From an uncultured Verrucomicrobiales bacterium (GTDB lineage Bacteria > Verrucomicrobiota > Verrucomicrobiia > Verrucomicrobiales > Akkermansiaceae): a stretch of DNA of 34,016 bases. Position numbers and translations under genes: made by a program. The stretch is from positions 1 through 34,016 of the forward strand of contig CAKZMG010000043.1 in the NCBI GenBank assembly GCA_937128235.1, written 5' to 3'. The notes beneath the pieces were generated by a model, which was given only the letters and a program-made list of their open reading frames with translations, ran no database searches and was not told the origin of the DNA. This document shows positions 2,835 to 29,763 of this stretch, one piece after another. How positions within the stretch are numbered: the stretch's first letter is position 1; every line of letters starts with the position of its first letter.

Positions 2835-4028
2835 TTAATATAGGGGTAAGTTTTCTCCTGCTTTGAGATCCGAGTGAGGTGGGATTTCTGCGAAGCCATT
2901 TGTGCCTTGGAGGGAGAGGTAATCACCAGAATTTCGTGGTGGGTGGATGGTGATTTTTCCGTTGTTAGAGCGGTAGGGGAGGATGCCTGTGAGCGGGGAA
3001 TCCCATGAGAAGTCTTCTGCTAGAGGTAGGTTTTTTGGCTGGTTGTTTTTCCCTAACATTTTACGTAATGTTGGTAATACGTAAAGGTGCATGGTTGCCA
3101 TGACGGAGACGGGATTTCCTGGGAGGGCAAAAATGGTGGGTGAATTTTCGGAATTACTAGCCCAAAATGCGAATGGTTTTCCTGGTCGCTGAGCTACTCC
3201 GTGAAAGGCGGGCTTGCTTAGCAGTTTTTCTAGTAGGGGTGCGACCCAGTCAAATTTTCCCATGGAGATACCGCCGGTTAGGATGAGGATATCGTTTTCA
3301 GGATCAGTTAGGGCAGAGGTAAGTTTTTGTTCGATGAGTTTTGGGTCATCGTTTACGTGTTCTGTGGTGATATTTCCTAGCTGCTGAGATGTTATGAGTG
3401 CGCAGATAGCGGATGGATGACTCCTGCGAATCTGATAATCTGTAGGGCTGTTAGATGGGTCGATTATTTCATCGCCCGTGGTGATGAGATGAATCTTGGG
3501 TAGGCGGGTGACTTCTATCTCAGTAGCTCCCACACTGGCTGCGATGGCGAGTTCATTGGCTGTTAGAGTGGTGCCTGGGGTGAGTAGGGTGTCGCCCGCC
3601 TTGCTGTCTGAGCCTTTGGGGTGGATGTGCTGATTGTCTTCCGCTGCTATGCCATCGTGCGGGAGTGCGTAGCCATCAATGATGTCTATTTGCTCTACGG
3701 GGATGACGCAGTTGGCATCGGCAGGGAGTGGTGCTCCGGTCATGACTTCGATGGCGTATTCGCCTTTAGGTAGCGTCATTTTCTCAGCTCCCGCTGCCTG
3801 CGTTCCGATGATCTGGTATCTCCATGAGCCGAGTTTGTGGTTGTAGGTATTGATGCAGATGCCGTCCATCATGACTCGGTCAAATGGAGGCGCATCACGG
3901 TCTGCTGAGATTTCTGTAGCAAGGACTCTGCCGTAGGCATTTTCTAATATCACCATTTCAGATCCAACCCGCAGGCAATTTTCTGCAATGATCTGGGTAG
4001 CTTCTGCTGTGGTGATGAGTGGCTGCAT
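2835..4028 (-). CDS. moeA: Molybdopterin molybdenumtransferase MoeA
   Basis: MoeA inserts molybdate into adenylylated molybdopterin, the last step of molybdenum-cofactor synthesis, in the cytosol. Visible family blocks in order are PPFDRVMMDGI (about 47-57), VMTGAPLPADANCVIPVE (about 95-112), LITTGDEI (about 181-188), TGGISMGKFDW (251-261), RPGKPFAFW (281-289) and ALPGNPVSV near residue 310. Length 397 aa is normal. The PPFDR/GKFDW variant differs from the enterobacterial PPFDN/GxxD form and resembles versions I associate with Bacteroidota. No other molybdenum-cofactor genes are in the window. It is the first gene of the moeA / 99-aa / flavoprotein operon. Confidence 0.93.
   Translation of the reverse strand: MQPLITTAEATQIIAENCLRVGSEMVILENAYGRVLATEISADRDAPPFDRVMMDGICINTYNHKLGSWRYQIIGTQAAGAEKMTLPKGEYAIEVMTGAPLPADANCVIPVEQIDIIDGYALPHDGIAAEDNQHIHPKGSDSKAGDTLLTPGTTLTANELAIAASVGATEIEVTRLPKIHLITTGDEIIDPSNSPTDYQIRRSHPSAICALITSQQLGNITTEHVNDDPKLIEQKLTSALTDPENDILILTGGISMGKFDWVAPLLEKLLSKPAFHGVAQRPGKPFAFWASNSENSPTIFALPGNPVSVMATMHLYVLPTLRKMLGKNNQPKNLPLAEDFSWDSPLTGILPYRSNNGKITIHPPRNSGDYLSLQGTNGFAEIPPHSDLKAGENLPLY
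2841..2855 (+). repeat. GGTAAGTTTT repeat, copy 1 (inside moeA)
   Basis: TAGGGGTAAGTTTTC lies at the 3' end of moeA, encoding the antisense of its last codons (ENLPLY). It is a member of the eight-copy word family described in the findings. Confidence 0.5.
3315..3328 (+). repeat. GGTAAGTTTT repeat, copy 2 (inside moeA)
   Basis: AGAGGTAAGTTTTT lies within moeA, antisense to codons for KLTSA. It is the second copy of the word in the same gene, about 475 bp from the first. Confidence 0.5.
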
Positions 4029-16046: not shown

Positions 16047-17108
16047 TTACTTCTTAATTTGCTTCACCATTTCTTTGCCTAAGCCGAGTCCGACGTTCAT
16101 GTAGGTCTCTGCATTTCCGCTGTAGTGTCCGTTGGAGCTGCCGCCTTTTGAGAGTGGGTGGGTGTAGAGGAAGCCTATGTTGTTTCCCAGTTCCTTGGAA
16201 TATTTTCCGCTGGCTAAGCTTTTCATGGCGTTGAGGATGATGCCGTCAGCTGATGTGGCTCCGTCTTTGGTTTGCCCTAGTGATGCTGTTACGAAGGCGG
16301 CTTTTGGTGCGTTGAAATCTTTGCGGAGTGCTTTCACTAAATTCACGAGATTCTTCTCATAGGTGGCTGCGTGTGCGGGGTTGTATCTATCCTTGTCACC
16401 CTGCCACCAGATGAATCCAGTCACTTCGTATCCTTTGGCTCCTGGGTAAAATGTATCGAGCTCTGCTAGGATTTTTTTCGCGTTAGCTACATCGTCATCG
16501 TATTGCTTTCCGGCATACCACTGGAGCATGTCTCCGCCTTTGACGTAGGGGACGATGGTTTTGTCTTTCTTGCTTTTTACGGTCTCTTTGTAGCCAGGTT
16601 CTTCTTTGCCATTATGGGTGTAGCGTGGGGTTCCTGGAGGGAGTAGATCCCAGCCGAGGCTGCGGTTGCCGATAGAGCTTTTGAGAACCATGACTGGTTC
16701 ATCAATGGCGTGCCCAAGCTGGTGACCGATACCGATTTCGATGCCGAGTTTCTTGCCGCTGATGGTCAGCCAGTCATTACGATAAATGCCTTTTCTGCCA
16801 GTCATGACAGAGACATTGCGAACGTCTTTCCGCGTGGTCCAGGCGCCTGCATCATCTACGAGGAAGGGGTAAATTTTGCCGAGCTGTGGAGTGACTTTTC
16901 CCATTTCGAGGGTGTTAGATTGCCCCATTACTATGAAGACTTTGACGGGCTTTTTCATGTTGGCTGGCTTGCCATCTGGGTCTGGAGGGTTTGGAAGTTC
17001 ACTGGTGAGTTCTTTTGCTTGAGCAGCTGTGGCAGCAGTGATGGCTGAGATTCCCATGCACATAGCTACGAGTAAGCTGGACGTTTTCTTTATGTTCCTC
17101 ATTTTCAT
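16047..17108 (-). CDS. Secreted SASA/DUF303-type carbohydrate esterase (sialate O-acetylesterase-like)
   Basis: The SGNH-type hydrolase blocks are FIVMGQSNTLEMG (catalytic Ser about residue 87 of the longest ORF), FIWWQGDKDR (about 255-264) and a C-terminal NGHYSGNAETY with the expected catalytic His. Family members remove acetyl groups from sialic acid or xylan-like glycans. The longest ORF begins at 17177. I prefer the ATG at 17108 (or 17102) because it places MKMRNIKKTSSLLVAMCMG as a normal signal peptide with cleavage near AQA. It is probably exported. It is monocistronic, convergent with TA module 2. Substrate unknown. Confidence 0.85.
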   Translation of the reverse strand: MKMRNIKKTSSLLVAMCMGISAITAATAAQAKELTSELPNPPDPDGKPANMKKPVKVFIVMGQSNTLEMGKVTPQLGKIYPFLVDDAGAWTTRKDVRNVSVMTGRKGIYRNDWLTISGKKLGIEIGIGHQLGHAIDEPVMVLKSSIGNRSLGWDLLPPGTPRYTHNGKEEPGYKETVKSKKDKTIVPYVKGGDMLQWYAGKQYDDDVANAKKILAELDTFYPGAKGYEVTGFIWWQGDKDRYNPAHAATYEKNLVNLVKALRKDFNAPKAAFVTASLGQTKDGATSADGIILNAMKSLASGKYSKELGNNIGFLYTHPLSKGGSSNGHYSGNAETYMNVGLGLGKEMVKQIKK

Positions 17109-17300
17109 TGGTTCATTTTTTATGGTTAGTGGTTCGCTTGTTGCTCCTGCATTTTTCATAAATGTACACGAGTGCATTCATCATCAATACTTAAGCTAGA
17201 TAGGTATTGTTGCAAAGAATATTCATATTACGGCTAGAATGGGAGCGGTGAGTTAAATTATTTCTGCCTGCTTAGAAAATGATGCTAGTGAGTTTCTTAT

Positions 17301-17462: not shown

Positions 17463-19019
17463 ATGATAGAGACGGTGAAACAACAAACTGAGAGTGCTAC
17501 GGAGGGTGCTGATTTAAGCACAGGTTCTGGAGTAGAAACTAAGGCTGCGAAGTCTGAGGGAAATAAGAGGGCTACTAATCTTCAGGAGTTCGGGCTGCAA
17601 TCGCCGCTTAACTCAGAGAATACGGAGGCGAAAAACTTTGTGCTGGATACGAATGTCCTCCTGCATGATCCTAGTTGCTTGAATCGTTTTTCAGATAACC
17701 ATCTCTGCATCCCTGCGGATGTACTCAGCGAGCTAGATAAATTTAAAACAGAACAGAGTGACCGTGGTGCGAACGCGAGACAGGTTCACCGTAAGTTGAC
17801 CGAACTATTTTCGAATGAAGGAAGCGTGACGCAGGGAGTGGCGACTGAGGGTGGTGGGACGATCCGACTGGTGATTTATGATCCTATTTTCTGTATGGAG
17901 AATAGTGAGATGCTGGCGCAGTTCTTGAGGATTTTTCCAGACAAGGCGCGCGTCGATCACCGCATCATGGCAGTGACTCTTCTGATCGCAGAATACAATG
18001 ACTCACCTGTAGTTCTAGTGACGAAAGATCTGAACATGCAGCTAAAGGCACGCGCGGTGCACATTACTTGTGAAGATTATCAGAACGATAAAGTGGATCC
18101 GCGAGAGGTGAGTAATTACGACATTTTCCCGGTGACGGTGAATCCTGCGGAGTTGCAGAGATTTGCGAGCAGTGGGCATTTGGAGCTCCCGCACGAGAGG
18201 CGTGAGGGAGTGGTGCTGAATCAATATGTTCTTCTAACAGCTGGTGAGAAACAGACCATGCCAGCGCGTCTGGACACGGAAGGATTCTTTGTTAGATTAC
18301 AAACACCCGAGGTGCTACGCATCCCGGATGGGCATCATTTGAAGCCGCTAAACCTGGGGCAGAAATGTCTGATAGATGCGCTGCTGAATCCAGATATTTC
18401 CCTAGTGACGTGCTATGGGCAGGCTGGAACTGGTAAGACGCTAGTGGCTGTGGCAGCGGGTCTGCACGAGATGTTTAATAGACGCTATAATGGAATCACG
18501 ATCAGTCGCCCAGTGGTGGCGATGGGAGATCAGCTAGGTTTCCTACCGGGTGATCTGGATGATAAAATGAGACCTTGGTTGCAACCTATTTATGATGCGC
18601 TAGAATTACTGATGGCACCACCAAGTGGAAACCAGGCACCGAAGAGGAAGCAGGGTAAAAAAGATGATGATGTAAAGAGTGTCAAAGCATATGACCATCT
18701 CATAGAGCAAGGTGTGGTAGAAATAGAAGCACTTTGCTATATTCGTGGGCGTTCTATTCCTAACAGATTTTTCGTGCTAGATGAAGCTCAGCAGCTCACG
18801 CCACAGGAAGCAAAAACCGTGGTCACACGGATGTCCAGAGGTTCTAAACTAGTGCTAGTGGGTGATCCTGCACAGATAGATAATCCGTATGTGGACAGCC
18901 GCAGTAATGGATTAGTTTATACAAGAAATCGTCTAAAAGGTCAGCCGTTTACGGCTCATGTTTCGCTTAGTAGAGGCGAGCGTAGCCCATTAGCAGAGGC
19001 TGGTGCGCAGTTGATGTGA
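17463..19019 (+). CDS. phoH: PIN-domain PhoH-like ATPase/ribonuclease (YlaK/PhoH2 type)
   Basis: The 518-aa protein has a polar 55-residue N-terminus, a PIN nuclease domain (FVLDTNVLLHDP at about 59-70 with catalytic D62; VLSELDKFK with E90; VTKDLNMQLKA). A PhoH P-loop ATPase domain follows, with GQAGTGKTLV (about 320-328) and Walker B FFVLDEAQQL (about 435-444), plus VGDPAQIDN. PhoH2 proteins of this layout couple RNA unwinding to RNA cleavage. It stands alone; the following gene has its own candidate promoter. Confidence 0.92.
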   Translation: MIETVKQQTESATEGADLSTGSGVETKAAKSEGNKRATNLQEFGLQSPLNSENTEAKNFVLDTNVLLHDPSCLNRFSDNHLCIPADVLSELDKFKTEQSDRGANARQVHRKLTELFSNEGSVTQGVATEGGGTIRLVIYDPIFCMENSEMLAQFLRIFPDKARVDHRIMAVTLLIAEYNDSPVVLVTKDLNMQLKARAVHITCEDYQNDKVDPREVSNYDIFPVTVNPAELQRFASSGHLELPHERREGVVLNQYVLLTAGEKQTMPARLDTEGFFVRLQTPEVLRIPDGHHLKPLNLGQKCLIDALLNPDISLVTCYGQAGTGKTLVAVAAGLHEMFNRRYNGITISRPVVAMGDQLGFLPGDLDDKMRPWLQPIYDALELLMAPPSGNQAPKRKQGKKDDDVKSVKAYDHLIEQGVVEIEALCYIRGRSIPNRFFVLDEAQQLTPQEAKTVVTRMSRGSKLVLVGDPAQIDNPYVDSRSNGLVYTRNRLKGQPFTAHVSLSRGERSPLAEAGAQLM

Positions 19020-19104: not shown

Positions 19105-22100
19105 ATGTCTATGTTGAATGATAAGATCAAAAATTTTCTACTCAGTGGAGCTTGCCTAGGTTTGGGGCTTTTGAGTTTAAATACCAATCTAAGCGCAGAC
19201 ACGATCACGCTTTTTGAAGGGGAAATTCTAGAAGGGTGGAAGGGTGATCCTAAGTTCTGGAGTGTCCAAGATGGTGCCATCACTGCCAAATCTACCGAGG
19301 CGAATCCGTGCAAGCAAACGACTTATTTAACCTACACAAAAAAGCAGTTTGCTAATTTTGAGCTTACTGTATCGTTCCGTTTTCTCTCTGAGAAGGGGAA
19401 TGGTGGAATCCAATACAGAAGTCAGTGGGCAGATGAGAAAAAATTTATGATCAAAGGCTACCAGGCTGACATGGAGACTGGTAAGAATTACAGCGGTATA
19501 CTTTATGAGCAAGACGGGCGCGGAATAGTAGCTAAGCGAGGGCAGAAAATGGTCATCGCTACGAACGGTAAAAAAGCGATAGATGCCAAGCCTCTCCCAG
19601 ACGCACAGAAAGCGCAGGAATCATTGAAGCGAGGCAAGTGGAGCAATTACAGAATAGTGGCTGATGGGCAGACGCTTCAGCACCAGATCAATGGCTTCAC
19701 AACCATCGAAGTAGAAGATAACGACAAAAACCGGAGTGCCGCAAAGGGATTTCTCGCTCTCCAAATGCACGCTGGACCTGCCATGACAGTTCAATATAAG
19801 GACATAAAGATTCTTGAACTTCCCGACTCAGAAAAAAAGAAAGTTGCCACAAAGAAAGGTGCTGTTCCTGAGTGGATCTGGGGTGGTAGGTTAAAGCCAA
19901 ATCAGAAGTTATTTTTCTCTAAGGAATTTCAGATCAAGAAAGCTACTAAGCCTGAGAAGTGCGAGCTCATTGTGAACTGTGATAATTCCTGCATCGTGAA
20001 AGTGAATGGCAAGAAAGTGGGGTCTTCTAATGATTGGAAAAAATCAGTCAAGGTAGATGTGGCTGGTCATCTCAAAGTAGGAAAAAATGTCATTGAAGTC
20101 GAAGCCAATAATGAAGATGGAATAGCTGGACTTGTAGTGAAATTATCTAACATTCTTGTCTCTGATCAATCTTGGTCATGTTTCGATAAGGATAAAAATA
20201 GAGTAGCTACTCATTACCTAGGTGATCTTGGAATGAACCCGTGGGGCATGGTCATGGGAGGTAATGCAGAGCCAACTCCAGACACTCTCTCGGTGATGGA
20301 TGGCTTTGAAGTAGAGAAGATTTATGATGTGGATAAAAAGACCGAGGGCTCATGGGTCTCGATGTGCTTTGATGATAAGGGAGCTCTTTTTGTGAGTGAT
20401 CAATATGGAAGTTTATTTAAACTCGAAATCAAAGAGGGGAAAGTTGTCAGCAAGAAAAGAATAGAGAGCATGGGACACGCGCAAGGCATTTGTTGGGCGT
20501 ATGGGAGCCTCTACATCGTTTCTTCAAACAAGCAAAAACCTGGAGTTTACCGACTGACTGACACAAATGGTGATGAAGCCTTCGATGAACAGGAACTCAT
20601 CTTACCTATTGTGGGTGGCGGGGAGCACGGGACGCATGGACTGATAAAAGATCCTAATTCTAAGAATAAGGGATTATATTTTGTAGTTGGGAACCATACG
20701 GGTCCTCCGAAAGAGGCGAGTCATGTCTCAAACAAAAACTGGGCAGAAGACACGCTTCACCCTCATATGAATGATGCGAGTGGTCATGCTGTGGGGAAAA
20801 AAGCGCCCGGAGGTACATTGATTTGGCTGTCAGCTGATGGAAAGAAATCAGAGATTATAGCCACAGGGATGAGGAATACTTATGACATTGCTGCTAGTCC
20901 TAGCGGAGAGATTTTTGGATATGATTCTGACATGGAGTATGATGTCGGCACTCCATGGTATCGCCCTACCAGAGTGTATCATTACATCAAGGGTGCGGAG
21001 TATGGCTGGCGCACTGGCACTGCAAAATGGCCAGCGTATTATGCAGATAGCCTAGGCTCAGTGATCGATATTGGGCCAGGTTGTCCTACGGGAGTAGTCT
21101 TTGGAACGAGAGCTAAGTTTCCTGCTAAGTATCAGAAATCTTTATTCATCTGTGACTGGACGTTTGGCAGAATTTACGCGCTTCACCTGGAGCCAAATGG
21201 AACTACTTATTCCGCTACGAAAGAAGTGCTAGTAGCAGGGAAGCCGCTGCCTCTTACCGATGTAGTGATAGGTCCAGATGGAGCCATGTATTTCCTTAAA
21301 GGCGGTAGAAGGCTAGGTTCAGCACTCTATAGGTTAACTTATACTGGCACAGAATCCACCGCTCAAGTTTCTCCTGAGCCTCTTAGCTCGGCACGAAAGA
21401 AGCTTAAGGTCATACAAAATTCTCAAGACTCAAAAGACATCAATGAGATATGGAAAAGCCTAGGTAGCTCTGACCGAACACTTCGCTACGCAGCGAGGGT
21501 GTCTCTGGAGCAACTTTCAGTGGAGCAATGGATGGCTAAATTTAAATCTGAAAGTGATCCGCAGACCATCGTTACAGCTAGCCTAGCGTTGGCGCGGAAT
21601 AAAGCACCAGCAAATGCGGTCTTTAAGAAGTTGCTCGCATTAGACTTTAATGGAATGGATGATCCGCTGAAGTTAGAATATCTCAGAGCAGTATCGCTGC
21701 TATGTATTAGAACAGGGAAGCCTGATGAGAAGATGAGAGTGGCTTTACTTCAGAAATTTGATCGCTACCCAAGCTCAAATTCTAACGTGAATAGAGAGCT
21801 TTGCAGAATACTAGTCTATCTGGATTCTAACACGGTTACCACGAAGACACTGCAAATGATGAATAACTCGATTGTAGTAAAAGAAGATATTTCTCAAGAG
21901 CTGTTAGATCTAAATGATAGATACGGACAAGATATAAAAAGAATGCTCAAGAATCAGCCTGATAGCCAAGCTCTTCACTACGCGCTGATGCTCAAGAACC
22001 AGAAAAGTGGCTGGAATGAAGTAACAGTGAAAGCTTACTACGAATGGTTAGCTATAGCTGAATCTAAAACTGGAGGCAGGAGTTATGCGGGGTTCATTAA

Positions 22101-22689
22101 AAACATTCGTAAAGACGCAATGAAAAATCTTAAATCAGATGCAGCCTTATTAGCTCTGGCGAAGGAGGCATCAAAAGTAACTCCAGCCGCTCAGCCTACG
22201 TTCACCGCTGAGGGACCTGGAAGAAATTGGACTCATAAGGATGCGGTCGCAGCTACTCAGGATTTATCTGGTGCTGATGCAGCTAATGGTAAAAAAATGT
22301 TTCAGGCTGTGATGTGTGCTAGATGCCACATGTATTCTGGAGAGGGTGGAAGTTCTGGACCGAAGCTCACCTTGCTAGCGAATCGTTTTAATAAAGAGGA
22401 TATTCTTAAAGCGATTATTCATCCTTCAGAAGTGGTTTCTGATCAGTATCAGAATACGGTCCTGCATCTCAAAGATAAATCGACTTTGGAAGGAAAGATC
22501 ATGAAGGAAGATGAAAAAAATGTCTATCTGGCGATTAATCCATATGATCTATCAATGCAGTTTCCAGTTCTAAAATCTACGATCATTAAGCGCGAGAAAT
22601 CTAACACTTCTGCAATGCCGCCATCGCTCATAAACGCACTTAACCCAGATGAACTGAGAGACCTGATGAAGTTTCTTACTAATGAATAA
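19105..22689 (+). CDS. Secreted DUF1080 / beta-propeller dehydrogenase-like / cytochrome c fusion protein
   Basis: The 1194-aa exported protein has at least four parts. After a signal peptide (about 1-31) comes a DUF1080 (3-keto-disaccharide hydrolase-like) domain, about 33-235, with ITLFEGEILEGWKGD and FRFLSEKGNGGIQYRSQW. Next is a jelly-roll carbohydrate-binding-like segment (about 255-355). A PVC-type beta-propeller related to sugar dehydrogenases spans about 395-750 (MDGFEVEKIYDV). HEAT-like helices follow, then a C-terminal cytochrome c domain with CARCH (C1071, C1074, H1075) and a late Met-containing SAMPPS. Expected location is the periplasm. It leads an operon with two TIM-barrel enzymes, 11 nt before the next gene. 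Oxidation or hydrolysis of keto-sugars with electrons passed to the heme is inferred, not shown. Confidence 0.88.
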   Translation: MSMLNDKIKNFLLSGACLGLGLLSLNTNLSADTITLFEGEILEGWKGDPKFWSVQDGAITAKSTEANPCKQTTYLTYTKKQFANFELTVSFRFLSEKGNGGIQYRSQWADEKKFMIKGYQADMETGKNYSGILYEQDGRGIVAKRGQKMVIATNGKKAIDAKPLPDAQKAQESLKRGKWSNYRIVADGQTLQHQINGFTTIEVEDNDKNRSAAKGFLALQMHAGPAMTVQYKDIKILELPDSEKKKVATKKGAVPEWIWGGRLKPNQKLFFSKEFQIKKATKPEKCELIVNCDNSCIVKVNGKKVGSSNDWKKSVKVDVAGHLKVGKNVIEVEANNEDGIAGLVVKLSNILVSDQSWSCFDKDKNRVATHYLGDLGMNPWGMVMGGNAEPTPDTLSVMDGFEVEKIYDVDKKTEGSWVSMCFDDKGALFVSDQYGSLFKLEIKEGKVVSKKRIESMGHAQGICWAYGSLYIVSSNKQKPGVYRLTDTNGDEAFDEQELILPIVGGGEHGTHGLIKDPNSKNKGLYFVVGNHTGPPKEASHVSNKNWAEDTLHPHMNDASGHAVGKKAPGGTLIWLSADGKKSEIIATGMRNTYDIAASPSGEIFGYDSDMEYDVGTPWYRPTRVYHYIKGAEYGWRTGTAKWPAYYADSLGSVIDIGPGCPTGVVFGTRAKFPAKYQKSLFICDWTFGRIYALHLEPNGTTYSATKEVLVAGKPLPLTDVVIGPDGAMYFLKGGRRLGSALYRLTYTGTESTAQVSPEPLSSARKKLKVIQNSQDSKDINEIWKSLGSSDRTLRYAARVSLEQLSVEQWMAKFKSESDPQTIVTASLALARNKAPANAVFKKLLALDFNGMDDPLKLEYLRAVSLLCIRTGKPDEKMRVALLQKFDRYPSSNSNVNRELCRILVYLDSNTVTTKTLQMMNNSIVVKEDISQELLDLNDRYGQDIKRMLKNQPDSQALHYALMLKNQKSGWNEVTVKAYYEWLAIAESKTGGRSYAGFIKNIRKDAMKNLKSDAALLALAKEASKVTPAAQPTFTAEGPGRNWTHKDAVAATQDLSGADAANGKKMFQAVMCARCHMYSGEGGSSGPKLTLLANRFNKEDILKAIIHPSEVVSDQYQNTVLHLKDKSTLEGKIMKEDEKNVYLAINPYDLSMQFPVLKSTIIKREKSNTSAMPPSLINALNPDELRDLMKFLTNE

Positions 22690-22700
22690 TACCATAATAG

Positions 22701-23714
22701 ATGATGATAAAGTTACATAATGCCATGTGGCCAGGAGTCGTCGGTAAGGATGATTCTTCTGACCAGCCTACTATTTCTCTCGCTAAAATGTTAGACCTCA
22801 CTGCAAATGCCTCTGTCAATGGGCAGGGATACGATGGTGTGGATCTATTTTTATTTAGCCCGCATTTAGATACTAATGGCACTGATGATGATATCCGTAA
22901 GATGGCAGATGAGATCGTTAGCAAAGGGCTTAACATAGGATCGATTGTAGCTCCTGTCTGGCAAGGGACGATGGGTGACTCAGCGTTTGGTCCAGCGGAA
23001 TCTCGTGAGAAATTTCTCAGTGCCATTCGGTATGCCTGCCGGGTTGCTGGTGTTCTAAAAGAGCATGGAGCGCGTCAGTATGGAGTGATCAGAATGGATT
23101 CTGCGGGTAGTCCGGAAGAATTTTCTAAAGATGAGCTGGGCAATACTAAGCTCTTAGCAGACACCTTTAGAGAAGCAGGAAAGATAGCCGGCGGCCACGG
23201 CGAGAGACTCGCAGCTGAAGGTGAGATCTGCTGGGGAGGGATGCACTCTTGGAAGCACATGTTAGATACGCTGGAGGAGACAGGAACACCTGACACAGTA
23301 GGGTTTCAGGCAGATCTGGCACATACCTATCTCTATCTGTTAGGTTATAATGCTCCTGAACATGCGCTACTGAAAGAAGGACATAGTGATGAGGAATTCT
23401 GGGCAGCTTATAAAAACCTAACAGATAAGCTTCGTCCATGGACAATAGATTTCCATGTAGCTCAGAATGATGGATCAGTGCATGGATCTGGCTCACATGA
23501 TAAGACTGGTCGGCATTGTCTGGCAAATCACCCGAATGGTAAGTTAGACATCACGCGCTGTTCGGAGATGTGGCTGCGGGATTATGCAGAGAGAGGGATA
23601 GAGCATATTTGTTGGGACGGATGTATGTTTGATAATAGTGTCCTAGAAGAAGGTAAGACATGGGACACCATTCTAGGCGCGATGCTTGATGTCCGCGATC
23701 ATGTACAAGGATAG
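22701..23714 (+). CDS. Xylose-isomerase-like TIM-barrel protein
   Basis: This 337-aa cytosolic protein of the AP-endonuclease-2 / sugar isomerase superfamily has acidic and histidine residues in the expected places: [47 protein letters not shown] and a late HICWDGCMF. Relatives are sugar isomerases, epimerases or C-glycoside 3-oxo-deglycosidases. It is 11 nt after the DUF1080 fusion gene and 33 nt before a second barrel gene, so all three are probably cotranscribed. ATG 22704 (second Met) is an alternative start. Substrate not known. Confidence 0.82.
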
Positions 23715-23747
23715 AAGGATAGAATTTAAAATAGAAAATACAAAGTA

Positions 23748-24587
23748 ATGAGTGAGATAAAATTTGGAGCAGAAATATACACGTGGTTCATGGATGGCTA
23801 CGGTGAGGGTAATAAAAACAAGCTCGGGCATATGGCGGAGGTCGTAGGTAAGGCGGGATTCAAAGGCATAGAGCCGATGGTGCTGGAACCCTATGATGAC
23901 TACTGGATGGGCGATTATAAGGACCCGGCTAAGTTAAAAGATGCGCTGGATGAGGCGGGTATTGAGCTCGCGGCATTGGCTCTTATTTGTAAATGGGATG
24001 GTGAAGAAGAGACAGAAGCTGAGCGCGCATGTGCTGACTGGACGATAGAGATGCTAAAGCATTTTCCTGGAGCCGCGCTCGGAACAGTCCCGCTTCCAGA
24101 TGGTAGGCATGATCTTCAGCAGCGTAGGCTTAACTTAGTCAATAACGTCAACCGTGTTTCGCGCAGGGCGGCTGAGGCGGGACTAAATTGTTCATTTCAC
24201 CCGAACTCACCTCCGGGATCCATAGTCCGGATTCAGGACGACTACGATGTGGTGCTGAACTCACTCGATCCATCCGTGACTGGCTGGACACCAGATGTGG
24301 GGCATATCATTAGAGGAGGGATGGACATCATAGGAACCATGACGCGCTGGCAGCATCTGATCAATCACGTCCACTACAAAGACTACTCAGGAAATGGACC
24401 TGAACCATGGGCACAGATGGGCGAGGGGAAAGTAGATTTCCACAAGATCACGGAATTTCTGGTAGCGAGAAACTACAAAGGGTGGATCATCTGCGAGGAT
24501 GAATGTGAGCTAGCGATCACTCAGCCAGATGAGGTCACACTTCAAAACGGGCAGTGGTGTAATGAGCAGTTAGTCCCTCTTTTATAG
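23748..24587 (+). CDS. Sugar phosphate isomerase/epimerase-like TIM-barrel protein (IolE/Hyi-like)
   Basis: The 279-aa barrel has the usual metal-site strands: GIEPMVLEP (Glu near 42), CSFHPNSPPGS, GWTPDVGHIIRGGMD (Asp/His), HVHYKDYSG (His) and a C-terminal IICEDECEL (Glu). This pattern is that of the AP_endonuc_2 sugar isomerases and of inosose dehydratase-like enzymes. It is the third gene of the DUF1080 operon. It is distant from the 337-aa protein but the same fold, so the two may be successive enzymes of one keto-sugar route or form a pair. Confidence 0.85.
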   Translation: MSEIKFGAEIYTWFMDGYGEGNKNKLGHMAEVVGKAGFKGIEPMVLEPYDDYWMGDYKDPAKLKDALDEAGIELAALALICKWDGEEETEAERACADWTIEMLKHFPGAALGTVPLPDGRHDLQQRRLNLVNNVNRVSRRAAEAGLNCSFHPNSPPGSIVRIQDDYDVVLNSLDPSVTGWTPDVGHIIRGGMDIIGTMTRWQHLINHVHYKDYSGNGPEPWAQMGEGKVDFHKITEFLVARNYKGWIICEDECELAITQPDEVTLQNGQWCNEQLVPLL

Positions 24588-24592
24588 CTAAT

Positions 24593-24810
24593 TTGTATAG
24601 CCGATTTGAAGAGATGATGGAGGAGACATTAGCAGAATCCATCAAGAAAATTTCTGAAGCCGCAACCGCTGGAAAAGAAGCTAGCAAAGCGATGCTCGCA
24701 ACCATGGGAAGAAAAACACGCATGAAGAAAAAACCATAGGACTCCCAGATGCAGTTGCCATCTCAGTATCCATCATCCTCTCCACCATGCATGAGTTTAT
24801 CACTCAATAG
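24593..24810 (+). pseudogene. Decayed C-terminal end of a dihydroxyacetone kinase (DhaL domain)
   Basis: A short frame reads EAATAGKEASKAMLATMGRKTRM and stops at 24739. In the +2 frame it continues as KKTIGLPDAVAISVSIIL to a stop at 24810. Joined across the run of A residues at 24726-24733, this follows the end of DhaL, whose conserved tail has an M-x-A-x-x-GRAS, then S-IG and D-PGA-x-SV pattern. Only about 70 codons survive and the rest of the kinase is absent. It lies 6 nt after the last TIM-barrel gene, so the operon probably once ended with a triose/keto-sugar kinase. It is absent from the ORF track as such. Confidence 0.6.
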
Positions 24811-28788: not shown

Positions 28789-29763
28789 ATGAATGAAGGA
28801 ATGAAGTGGGAAAAAATAGCGATGTGCGCGGCTAAGGGAATGGTGATCATTCTGGGGGCTGGCGTGGTAAGCTGTGGGGCACTCTCGCGCTCGGCTAGGG
28901 CGGTGAGTGGGAAGGTGAAGAGCATGCAAGGTGAGGAAGGTAAGCTGAAATCTCATCAATATGCGCTGGATCAGGATGGTCCTCAGGCGCGTGGGCTGAG
29001 CGGGCTGAGAGGAAATAGAGTGGTGGCTAAGGTGGGGCAGTTAAGTACTAGGGAGGAGGACATTGTATGGGCACCGGAGGATCCGGATGTGCCTATCGCT
29101 GAGCTTGAGGGCATAGTGGTGAATGATGAGAACCCGCTAGATTCTTGGTTTGAGGACTACGGGAAGGCGATGAAAAAAGCGCGCGTGGAGGGGAAGCCGG
29201 TGATGCTGTGGTTTACTCGGTCTAGGAATAGCCCGCTGTGCCAGCAGTTGAGTGCGGAGTTATTTTCTCAGAAAGAATTTGAAGAATGGGCTGATGAGAA
29301 TCTGATAAGAATGAGAATAGACTCAAATATCCAGGAGAGAGATACGGCAAAACGCAAGGATAGAGAACGCTATGTAGCTAGTATCAAGAAACGCTACAGA
29401 GTGCTAGGTCAGCCAGTTGTTGTAGTCATTTCTCCGCGAGGAACTGAGTTCGGAAAGTATAGGGGATACACGGCGGGGTCAGCTGAGTTTTATTTCGGAA
29501 GGCTGAAAAATGCGCAGAGAACGGCACAGAAAGATCACGCAAGCTGGCAGTCTGAGATGGAGCGAAAAGGCTACCGCACCTGGCATGATGCGCGTGGTCG
29601 AGCAGTGTTCGCCAAGGTGACGCGCTACCGCAATGGAGTGATCTGGCTTGTGGAGCCTGATGGCAAAAAGTCTAGCACCAGCGTGAGCAAGCTTTCCGCC
29701 GAGGATAGGCAGTTTGTGGAGCGGAAAGTAGCAGATTCTCGGGCTAAGAAGAAATCTGAGTAG
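28789..29763 (+). CDS. Lipoprotein with thioredoxin-like and SHD1 domains
   Basis: The 324-aa protein has a lipobox GVVSC (Cys29). A thioredoxin-like domain covers about 115-245, with VMLWFTRSRNSPLCQQL at the active-site position and LGQPVVVVIS as the cis-Pro loop. A C-terminal SLA1-homology (SHD1) domain covers about 262-315 (RTWHDARGRAVFAKV, KLSAEDRQFV). The redox motif has only the second cysteine (S-P-L-C), so classical disulphide exchange is unlikely. SHD1 domains in this phylum are common on exported proteins and of uncertain role. A GGAGG box lies upstream. It is followed 19 nt later by another secreted protein gene. Confidence 0.8.
   Translation: MNEGMKWEKIAMCAAKGMVIILGAGVVSCGALSRSARAVSGKVKSMQGEEGKLKSHQYALDQDGPQARGLSGLRGNRVVAKVGQLSTREEDIVWAPEDPDVPIAELEGIVVNDENPLDSWFEDYGKAMKKARVEGKPVMLWFTRSRNSPLCQQLSAELFSQKEFEEWADENLIRMRIDSNIQERDTAKRKDRERYVASIKKRYRVLGQPVVVVISPRGTEFGKYRGYTAGSAEFYFGRLKNAQRTAQKDHASWQSEMERKGYRTWHDARGRAVFAKVTRYRNGVIWLVEPDGKKSSTSVSKLSAEDRQFVERKVADSRAKKKSE

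Follow-up and report, generated by a model that had tools for sequence, protein, structure and literature searches.

The window analyzed here comprises positions 1 to 34,016 (34,016 nucleotides) of contig CAKZMG010000043.1 (assembly GCA_937128235.1) from an uncultured Verrucomicrobiales bacterium of the Akkermansiaceae, and the locus in question consists of three closely spaced genes on its + strand and the remnant of a fourth. The first gene encodes a fusion protein of 1194 amino acids (19105–22689) and is followed after 11 bases by barA (22701–23714, 337 amino acids), which is separated by 33 bases from barB (23748–24587, 279 amino acids). An initial annotation had described a fusion of DUF1080, propeller and cytochrome domains, two TIM-barrel enzymes and a lost kinase, and open reading frame and domain searches found every one of these parts where it had been placed. 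The fusion gene, barA and barB are intact, conserved members of one gene system, which takes the form of a longer operon in Bacteroidota. The cluster probably breaks down an oxidized sugar. The features of the locus were as follows:

19105–22689, +: fusion protein with signal peptide, DUF1080, CBM67-like domain, propeller, helical linker and c-type heme domain (open reading frame, domain searches, AF2 model, selection)
19105–19197, +: putative signal peptide, residues 1–31 (by eye: basic start, hydrophobic core, LSA/D; low pLDDT)
19201–19812, +: DUF1080/PF06439, residues 33–236 (Pfam; fold matches 3osd, 9fbe, 8rr2, 8tda; family motifs)
19858–20280, +: CBM67-like/jelly-roll domain, about residues 252–392 (profile matches to 3w5m, 6kbj)
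20287–21354, +: propeller, residues 395–750 (TIGR02604; Foldseek 2ism, 3a9g, 1qbi, 3das; family alignment)
21385–22194, +: all-helical HEAT-like linker, about residues 761–1030 (AF2 secondary structure)
22273–22686, +: c-type heme domain TIGR02603, residues 1057–1194 (NCBIfam; relative of Kustd1711)
22315–22329, +: CARCH heme-binding motif, C1071–H1075 (invariant in 35 homologs)
22615–22617, +: M1171, probable axial heme ligand (invariant; aligns with M292 of Kustd1711)
22701–23714, +: barA, PF01261 TIM barrel, 337 amino acids (Pfam, above cutoff; AF2 pLDDT 93.5)
23748–24587, +: barB, PF01261 TIM barrel, IolE/LgdB1-like, 279 amino acids (Pfam, above cutoff; profile matches)
24611–24804, +: relic of a DhaKL kinase C-terminus, frameshifted (tblastn E = 3e-15, two frames)

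Domains of the encoded proteins and fate of the kinase

In comparisons of the window genes with their closest relatives, pN was 0.04–0.22 and pS 0.73–0.80 for the fusion gene, barA and barB. Because pN is low while synonymous sites are near saturation, all three genes are, as judged from these alignments, under strong purifying selection. The AF2 model of the fusion protein (mean pLDDT 86) comprises beta domains, a succession of strands resembling a propeller, a stretch made up of helices only, and the heme domain. The first of its domains, called keto-disaccharide-hydrolase-like in the initial annotation, matched PF06439 well above the gathering score (residues 33–236, 122.4 against 26.8 bits, E = 3e-35), and motifs conserved across the family were preserved in the alignment. 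Foldseek matched it to 3osd, 9fbe, 8rr2, 8tda and 8v31, the titles of which name BT2157, 3-keto-glycoside eliminase/hydratase and 3-keto-2-hydroxy-glucal hydratase; the domain thus has the fold of solved 3-keto-glycoside eliminase/hydratases, and the assignment held. Elsewhere in the window genome (G000, C93:294–1475 and 3113–3301), two DUF1080 domains in one open reading frame, with a Gfo/Idh/MocA-like match nearby, mark another possible keto-glycoside locus.

The next domain, previously termed carbohydrate-binding-like, was borne out and refined to CBM67-like by profile matches to residues 135–301 of the Streptomyces alpha-L-rhamnosidase 3w5m (E = 6e-24), which we take to be its CBM67, and to the Pleurotus lectin 6kbj (E = 1e-27); Pfam gave weak GH2-N-like matches at residues 266–336. 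The closest two relatives, G005 and G002 (the taxonomy of the relatives given G numbers rests on kinship codes), both lack this domain, which is therefore inessential to the core function. The propeller remained below the NCBIfam cutoff for TIGR02604 (73.5 against 122.2 bits, E = 2e-20), and its profile returned only chance matches from the PDB. By Foldseek, its fold matched sugar dehydrogenases that use pyrroloquinoline quinone (PQQ; 2ism, 3a9g, 1qbi and 3das, TM score to target 0.57–0.70), and the G-x-R-N motif was kept in an alignment with YliI, for which the hhalign probability was only 6.8%.

The C-terminal domain exceeded the NCBIfam cutoff for TIGR02603 (90 against 68 bits), and Pfam also called a cytochrome c domain. 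The heme ligands C1071, C1074, H1075 and M1171 were invariant in 35 sequences, in agreement with the CxxCH heme domain initially annotated, and M1171 aligns with M292 of Kustd1711, a residue altered in deposited Kustd1711 mutants. Another genome of the genus carries a propeller-cytochrome homolog with stop codons and DUF1080 just upstream (G004:C1:1758346–1759920, L075), apparently a broken fusion gene.

For barA, neither sequence nor profile searches found a relative in the PDB, none was found among the plasmids searched, and hhalign detected no relation to barB or to the 352-amino acid barrel of a levoglucosan locus. SCO6571, D-tagatose 3-epimerase, Art22 and sugar isomerases were about equally close to its AF2 model (TM score to query about 0.55–0.65), and the 2-hydroxy-3-keto-glucal hydratase 8ro4 of A. 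tumefaciens was about as near as the other matches. The suggestion of a C-glycoside deglycosidase or an IolE relative was not sustained for barA, which lacks a sequence relative in the PDB and whose fold lies about equally near epimerases, isomerases and one hydratase; IolE and DgpB/C were rejected as its relatives, as no match supported them. The proposed kinship of barB with IolE-type barrels, on the other hand, was upheld. Its profile matched 3cny (E = 5e-15), pointing to a relationship with IolE, and by hhalign (98.7%, E = 3e-16) also a 271-amino acid barrel from a plasmid of Klebsiella. Against the NCBIfam model of the myo-inosose-2 dehydratase IolE (TIGR04379), barB scored below the cutoff (75 against 290 bits). 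The Klebsiella barrel adjoins a true levoglucosan dehydrogenase (749 bits, cutoff 650), and we infer from its place and size that it is LgdB1.

The sequence at 24611–24804 corresponds to the C-terminal ~65 residues of DhaKL kinases and provides the only DhaKL matches in the window genome (draft, 94.6% complete); the window contains no intact DhaK or DhaL domains. In G005, of the same genus, contig L014 carries the fusion gene, a PAS-AraC regulator, barA, barB and an intact DhaKL of about 600 amino acids directly after barB. As a frameshifted relic lies where G005 has the intact gene, the kinase was lost in the window genome, consistent with the DhaL tail and lost kinase of the initial annotation. 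Outside the window, G000:C300:15472–15764 is a decayed fragment with internal stops that resembles the alpha/beta hydrolase accompanying barB in relatives, and erosion may therefore be under way in this genome for the cytosolic steps of the pathway. In another genus, a propeller-cytochrome gene has as its neighbors a 76% identical DhaKL fragment (G043, L058:10482–10595) and a gene for a PAS-AraC regulator.

The gene set in Bacteroidota and Verrucomicrobia

In the barA neighborhoods fetched from Bacteroidota, the genes are arranged on one strand in the order SusC, SusD, propeller-cytochrome, DUF1080, (barC, ThuA, barB, alpha/beta hydrolase), DUF4432, cupin, barA and Gfo/Idh/MocA, where the genes in parentheses are optional and the ends are cut in some. 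Persicitalea jodogahamensis has the whole set, optional genes included, on one strand. barA was present in 66 of 149 Persicitalea relatives, and 20 further Bacteroidota barA neighborhoods were fetched, 14 of which were the best-scoring, so that the sample is not a random draw. Cupin, DUF4432, barA and Gfo/Idh/MocA were found in the same order in 20/20, and DUF1080 in 19/20, the remaining one (L246) being cut by a contig end. The propeller-cytochrome was found in 15/20; in the five others, the sequence stops at the last gene detected or no more than 3.4 kb past it. barB and the hydrolase were present in 10/20 and, because half of the Bacteroidota operons thus contain both barB and Gfo/Idh/MocA, these two are not strictly redundant. 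The cupin-like protein, which stands beside barA in every fetched Bacteroidota operon, has no Pfam or NCBIfam match, is 55% identical across two phyla (L209:8447–9640, L211:14277–15563) and is possibly a sugar isomerase.

DUF1080 and the propeller-cytochrome are encoded by adjacent genes in Bacteroidota and Lentisphaerae, whereas a single fused gene encodes both in Verrucomicrobia, a pattern that classically indicates that two proteins act together. With DUF1080, propeller-cytochrome, barA, barB and Gfo/Idh/MocA in one ordered Bacteroidota operon, the single functional unit envisaged in the initial annotation is supported. That annotation had also looked to other neighborhoods for a Gfo/Idh/MocA oxidoreductase and for DUF1080 genes near the barrels; the former is fixed in the Bacteroidota operons and occurs near barA in Verrucomicrobia as well, and the latter accompany barA in 19 of the 20 fetched Bacteroidota neighborhoods and lie near some of the Verrucomicrobial barA genes.

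Among the Verrucomicrobial relatives, barA was present in 76 of 98, nearly always as a single copy. Within 5 kb of the 76 distinct barA genes were Gfo/Idh/MocA (23, of which 20 belong to the close clade), cupin (16), barB (15), mutarotase-like (14), barC (14), alpha/beta hydrolase (10), DUF1080 (7), DhaKL (7), ribulokinase (6), AraD (6) and LsrF-type aldolase (6) genes. Three other members of the window genus have, in this order, AraC, barA, alpha/beta hydrolase, barB, class II aldolase/SDR, DhaKL and LsrF-type genes, with the class II aldolase/SDR (NF006196) and LsrF-type (NF006081) proteins above cutoff, and in other genera the order runs barA, barC, barB, alpha/beta hydrolase, ribulokinase (NF003154, above cutoff) and AraD. 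From the kinase, AraD and aldolase partners beside barA and barB, the gene neighborhoods suggest that carbon leaves the pathway as a ketose, an outlet absent from the initial annotation.

Of the 76 genomes with barA, 49 contain barB, 24 contain Gfo/Idh/MocA of the related-operon clade (at least 67% identity to the query), none contains both and 3 contain neither (Fisher P = 8e-17, computed ignoring kinship). In the barA tree, the partner switched at least six times, and four of the switches were forced by well-supported branches. The window genome has no Gfo/Idh/MocA of this clade, its best match being 33% identical over part of the sequence. The combinations barA-Gfo-DUF1080 or barA-Gfo-fusion were also found in the Verrucomicrobial genomes G032, G039 and G023, and in G023 barA, Gfo/Idh/MocA and the full fusion stand together again.

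A PIN-PhoH protein is encoded immediately upstream of the fusion gene (window 17463–19019, +), and since the same neighbor is kept in G005, the position of the locus is conserved. A scan of the locus for promoters and terminators gave chance-level results only. Farther upstream, on the opposite strand (16047–17177, −), the window encodes a secreted carbohydrate esterase of the SASA family (PF03629); the start of an open reading frame near barA in G057 (L210:2911–4023) is similar to it. Downstream, at 28789–29763 (+), lies a gene for a protein with thioredoxin-like and SHD1 domains.

A candidate pathway and its alternatives

The window carries a curtailed and in part degenerate copy of the gene cluster common to the two phyla, and there is about an even chance that this cluster is a conserved operon for sugar catabolism. 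On this reading, extracytoplasmic oxidation would precede cleavage by DUF1080, cytosolic conversion and exit as a ketose. A glycoside would be bound outside the cytoplasm by the CBM67-like domain and the propeller and oxidized, with electrons leaving via the c-type heme. The resulting keto-glycoside would be cleaved by DUF1080 through elimination/hydration, as in its solved relatives, and the keto-sugar would be taken up into the cytosol. There, barA would dehydrate, isomerize or reduce it to a ketose, partnered either by barB and the alpha/beta hydrolase or by Gfo/Idh/MocA. A kinase (DhaKL or ribulokinase) would then phosphorylate the ketose for an aldolase or AraD, a step broken at the window locus, where no more than a relic of the kinase is left.

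Several observations weigh against this scheme. The PQQ ligands of soluble glucose dehydrogenase, presumably a Lys and an R-x-R, correspond in the YliI alignment to family-conserved Thr and P-L-T; as that alignment is weak, this leans toward, and does not prove, a propeller without the usual PQQ binding. The dehydrogenase role given to the propeller in the initial annotation is therefore backed by its PQQ-enzyme fold and called into question by the apparent replacement of the Lys and two Arg, and of all the proposed steps the oxidation is the least secure. The fold of barA is undiagnostic of its reaction, since several enzyme types are about equally near. By sequence, DUF1080 is nearest to the uncharacterized BT3469 (4jqt, E = 5e-34) and aligns with BT2157 only in part, at an N-terminal stretch, and the Thermogutta DUF1080 protein THTE_1561 is reported to be an endo-glucanase that hydrolyzes xanthan, lichenan and other unoxidized glucans (PMC5673643, PMC10881899). 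In families f2–f4, barA and barB mostly stand alone. The oxidative route for a 3-keto-sugar or glycoside set out in the initial annotation is partly supported: the operon links DUF1080, barrels and oxidoreductase, whereas a dehydrogenase role of the propeller and a deglycosidase role of barA are less well supported.

The main rival takes DUF1080 as a plain secreted glycosidase that depolymerizes a glycan, with the propeller and CBM67-like domain binding substrate, the heme unrelated to sugar oxidation and the barrels acting downstream as ketose isomerases. The activity of THTE_1561, the apparent lack of most PQQ ligands in the propeller, and SusC/SusD and CBM67-like partners that suit a glycan system all fit this alternative, but a covalent heme with invariant ligands, always adjoining or fused to DUF1080, is difficult to account for if no redox reaction takes place, and a Gfo/Idh/MocA oxidoreductase is a fixed neighbor; we regard it as somewhat unlikely. 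A cyclitol pathway, in which Gfo/Idh/MocA would be an inositol-type dehydrogenase and barB an inosose dehydratase, the hydrolase would open the ring, barA, barC and the cupin would isomerize, and the fusion would free the cyclitol from a glycoside, appears less likely still. The matches of barB to IolE (75 bits; 3cny, E = 5e-15), Gfo/Idh/MocA to IolG (about 120 bits) and barC to IolO (100–117 bits) speak for it, but all lie far below the equivalog cutoffs (75 against 290, 123 against 355 and 117 against 300), the Gfo/Idh/MocA protein is closer to levoglucosan dehydrogenase (335–347 bits), and ribulokinase, AraD and DhaKL partners misfit the known inositol route. That the fusion and the barrels are unrelated neighbors by chance is very improbable: the separation of most Verrucomicrobial fusion homologs from barA beyond the genus, and the frequent isolation of barA in families f2–f4, are what it would predict, yet in all 20 fetched Bacteroidota neighborhoods these gene types make up a single ordered operon, and barA, Gfo/Idh/MocA and the full fusion are reunited in G023. 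Chance adjacency was rejected on this cross-phylum operon.

A bolder and tentative possibility is a new pathway of Bacteroidota and Verrucomicrobiota linked to the respiratory chain, in which a propeller-heme protein with a PQQ-enzyme fold and without the usual PQQ site would oxidize a glycoside outside the cytoplasm and deliver it to a DUF1080 domain that is either its neighbor or part of the same protein, and barA would found a new enzyme family. DUF1080 and PVC-type heme propeller proteins are numerous in Verrucomicrobia, most without an assigned role. An operon that ties both to two uncharacterized TIM barrels and Gfo/Idh/MocA offers a testable pathway, and Bacteroidota with the full operon are the test ground.

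Comparison with known systems

The gene cluster common to the two phyla appears to be undescribed: a literature search, with most subscription papers outside its reach, found no account of the combination of DUF1080-cytochrome and barrels. PVC-type heme-binding CxxCH proteins (TIGR02604/TIGR02603), of which Verrucomicrobial genomes have several related members each, share the propeller, helical linker and C-terminal heme domain; the window fusion differs in its added N-terminal DUF1080 and CBM67-like domains, its linkage to barrels and a propeller below the TIGR02604 cutoff. Soluble PQQ glucose dehydrogenase and YliI share the propeller fold and G-x-R-N motif and differ from the window protein, which appears to have Thr and P-L-T at the PQQ Lys and R-x-R. 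The inositol enzymes IolE and IolG are distant relatives of barB and Gfo/Idh/MocA, both of which fall far below the equivalog cutoffs.

In composition, the gene set is similar to pathways for 3-keto-glycosides and levoglucosan. The former are represented by BT2156–BT2160 of B. thetaiotaomicron, which likewise include a DUF1080 protein (the fold of the BT2157 structures) and a Gfo/Idh/MocA oxidoreductase. However, the Gfo/Idh/MocA of the related operons scored only 31–36 bits against cutoffs of 750 and 650 (NF058561/NF058563), the best match to the BT_2158-family glycoside 3-dehydrogenase in the window genome was 58 bits (cutoff 750), and the present operons add the propeller-cytochrome, barA, cupin, DUF4432 and barB-hydrolase. 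In the levoglucosan route (LgdA, LgdB1, LgdB2, LgdC), a Gfo first oxidizes levoglucosan at C3, two PF01261 barrels then carry out beta-elimination and hydration, and another Gfo performs the reduction (PMC7676230, PMC10066097). Shared features are an LgdA-related Gfo/Idh/MocA, two PF01261 barrels of the 30 and 36 kDa class and the resemblance of barB to the barrel beside true LgdA. In contrast, the Gfo/Idh/MocA of the related operons reached 335–347 of the 650 bits required for LgdA (NF052479), barA is unrelated by sequence to the 352-amino acid barrel, and the known pathway has neither DUF1080 nor a heme protein. Because the dehydrogenase equivalog cutoffs were missed, membership in neither the levoglucosan nor the BT2156–2160 system is shown, although the gene set may operate in the manner of a keto-glycoside pathway.

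The LacABC lactose 3-dehydrogenase of Caulobacter is alike in tying a periplasmic redox step to electron transport, and DUF1080 was proposed there, from fitness data, to follow the membrane-bound, cytochrome-linked periplasmic 3-dehydrogenase (PMC9007349). It is unlike the window system in that the redox part of the latter is a propeller-heme protein fused to DUF1080. If the proposed pathway is correct, it would represent a further way, besides LacABC-type and NAD-dependent enzymes, of coupling keto-glycoside cleavage to electron transport.

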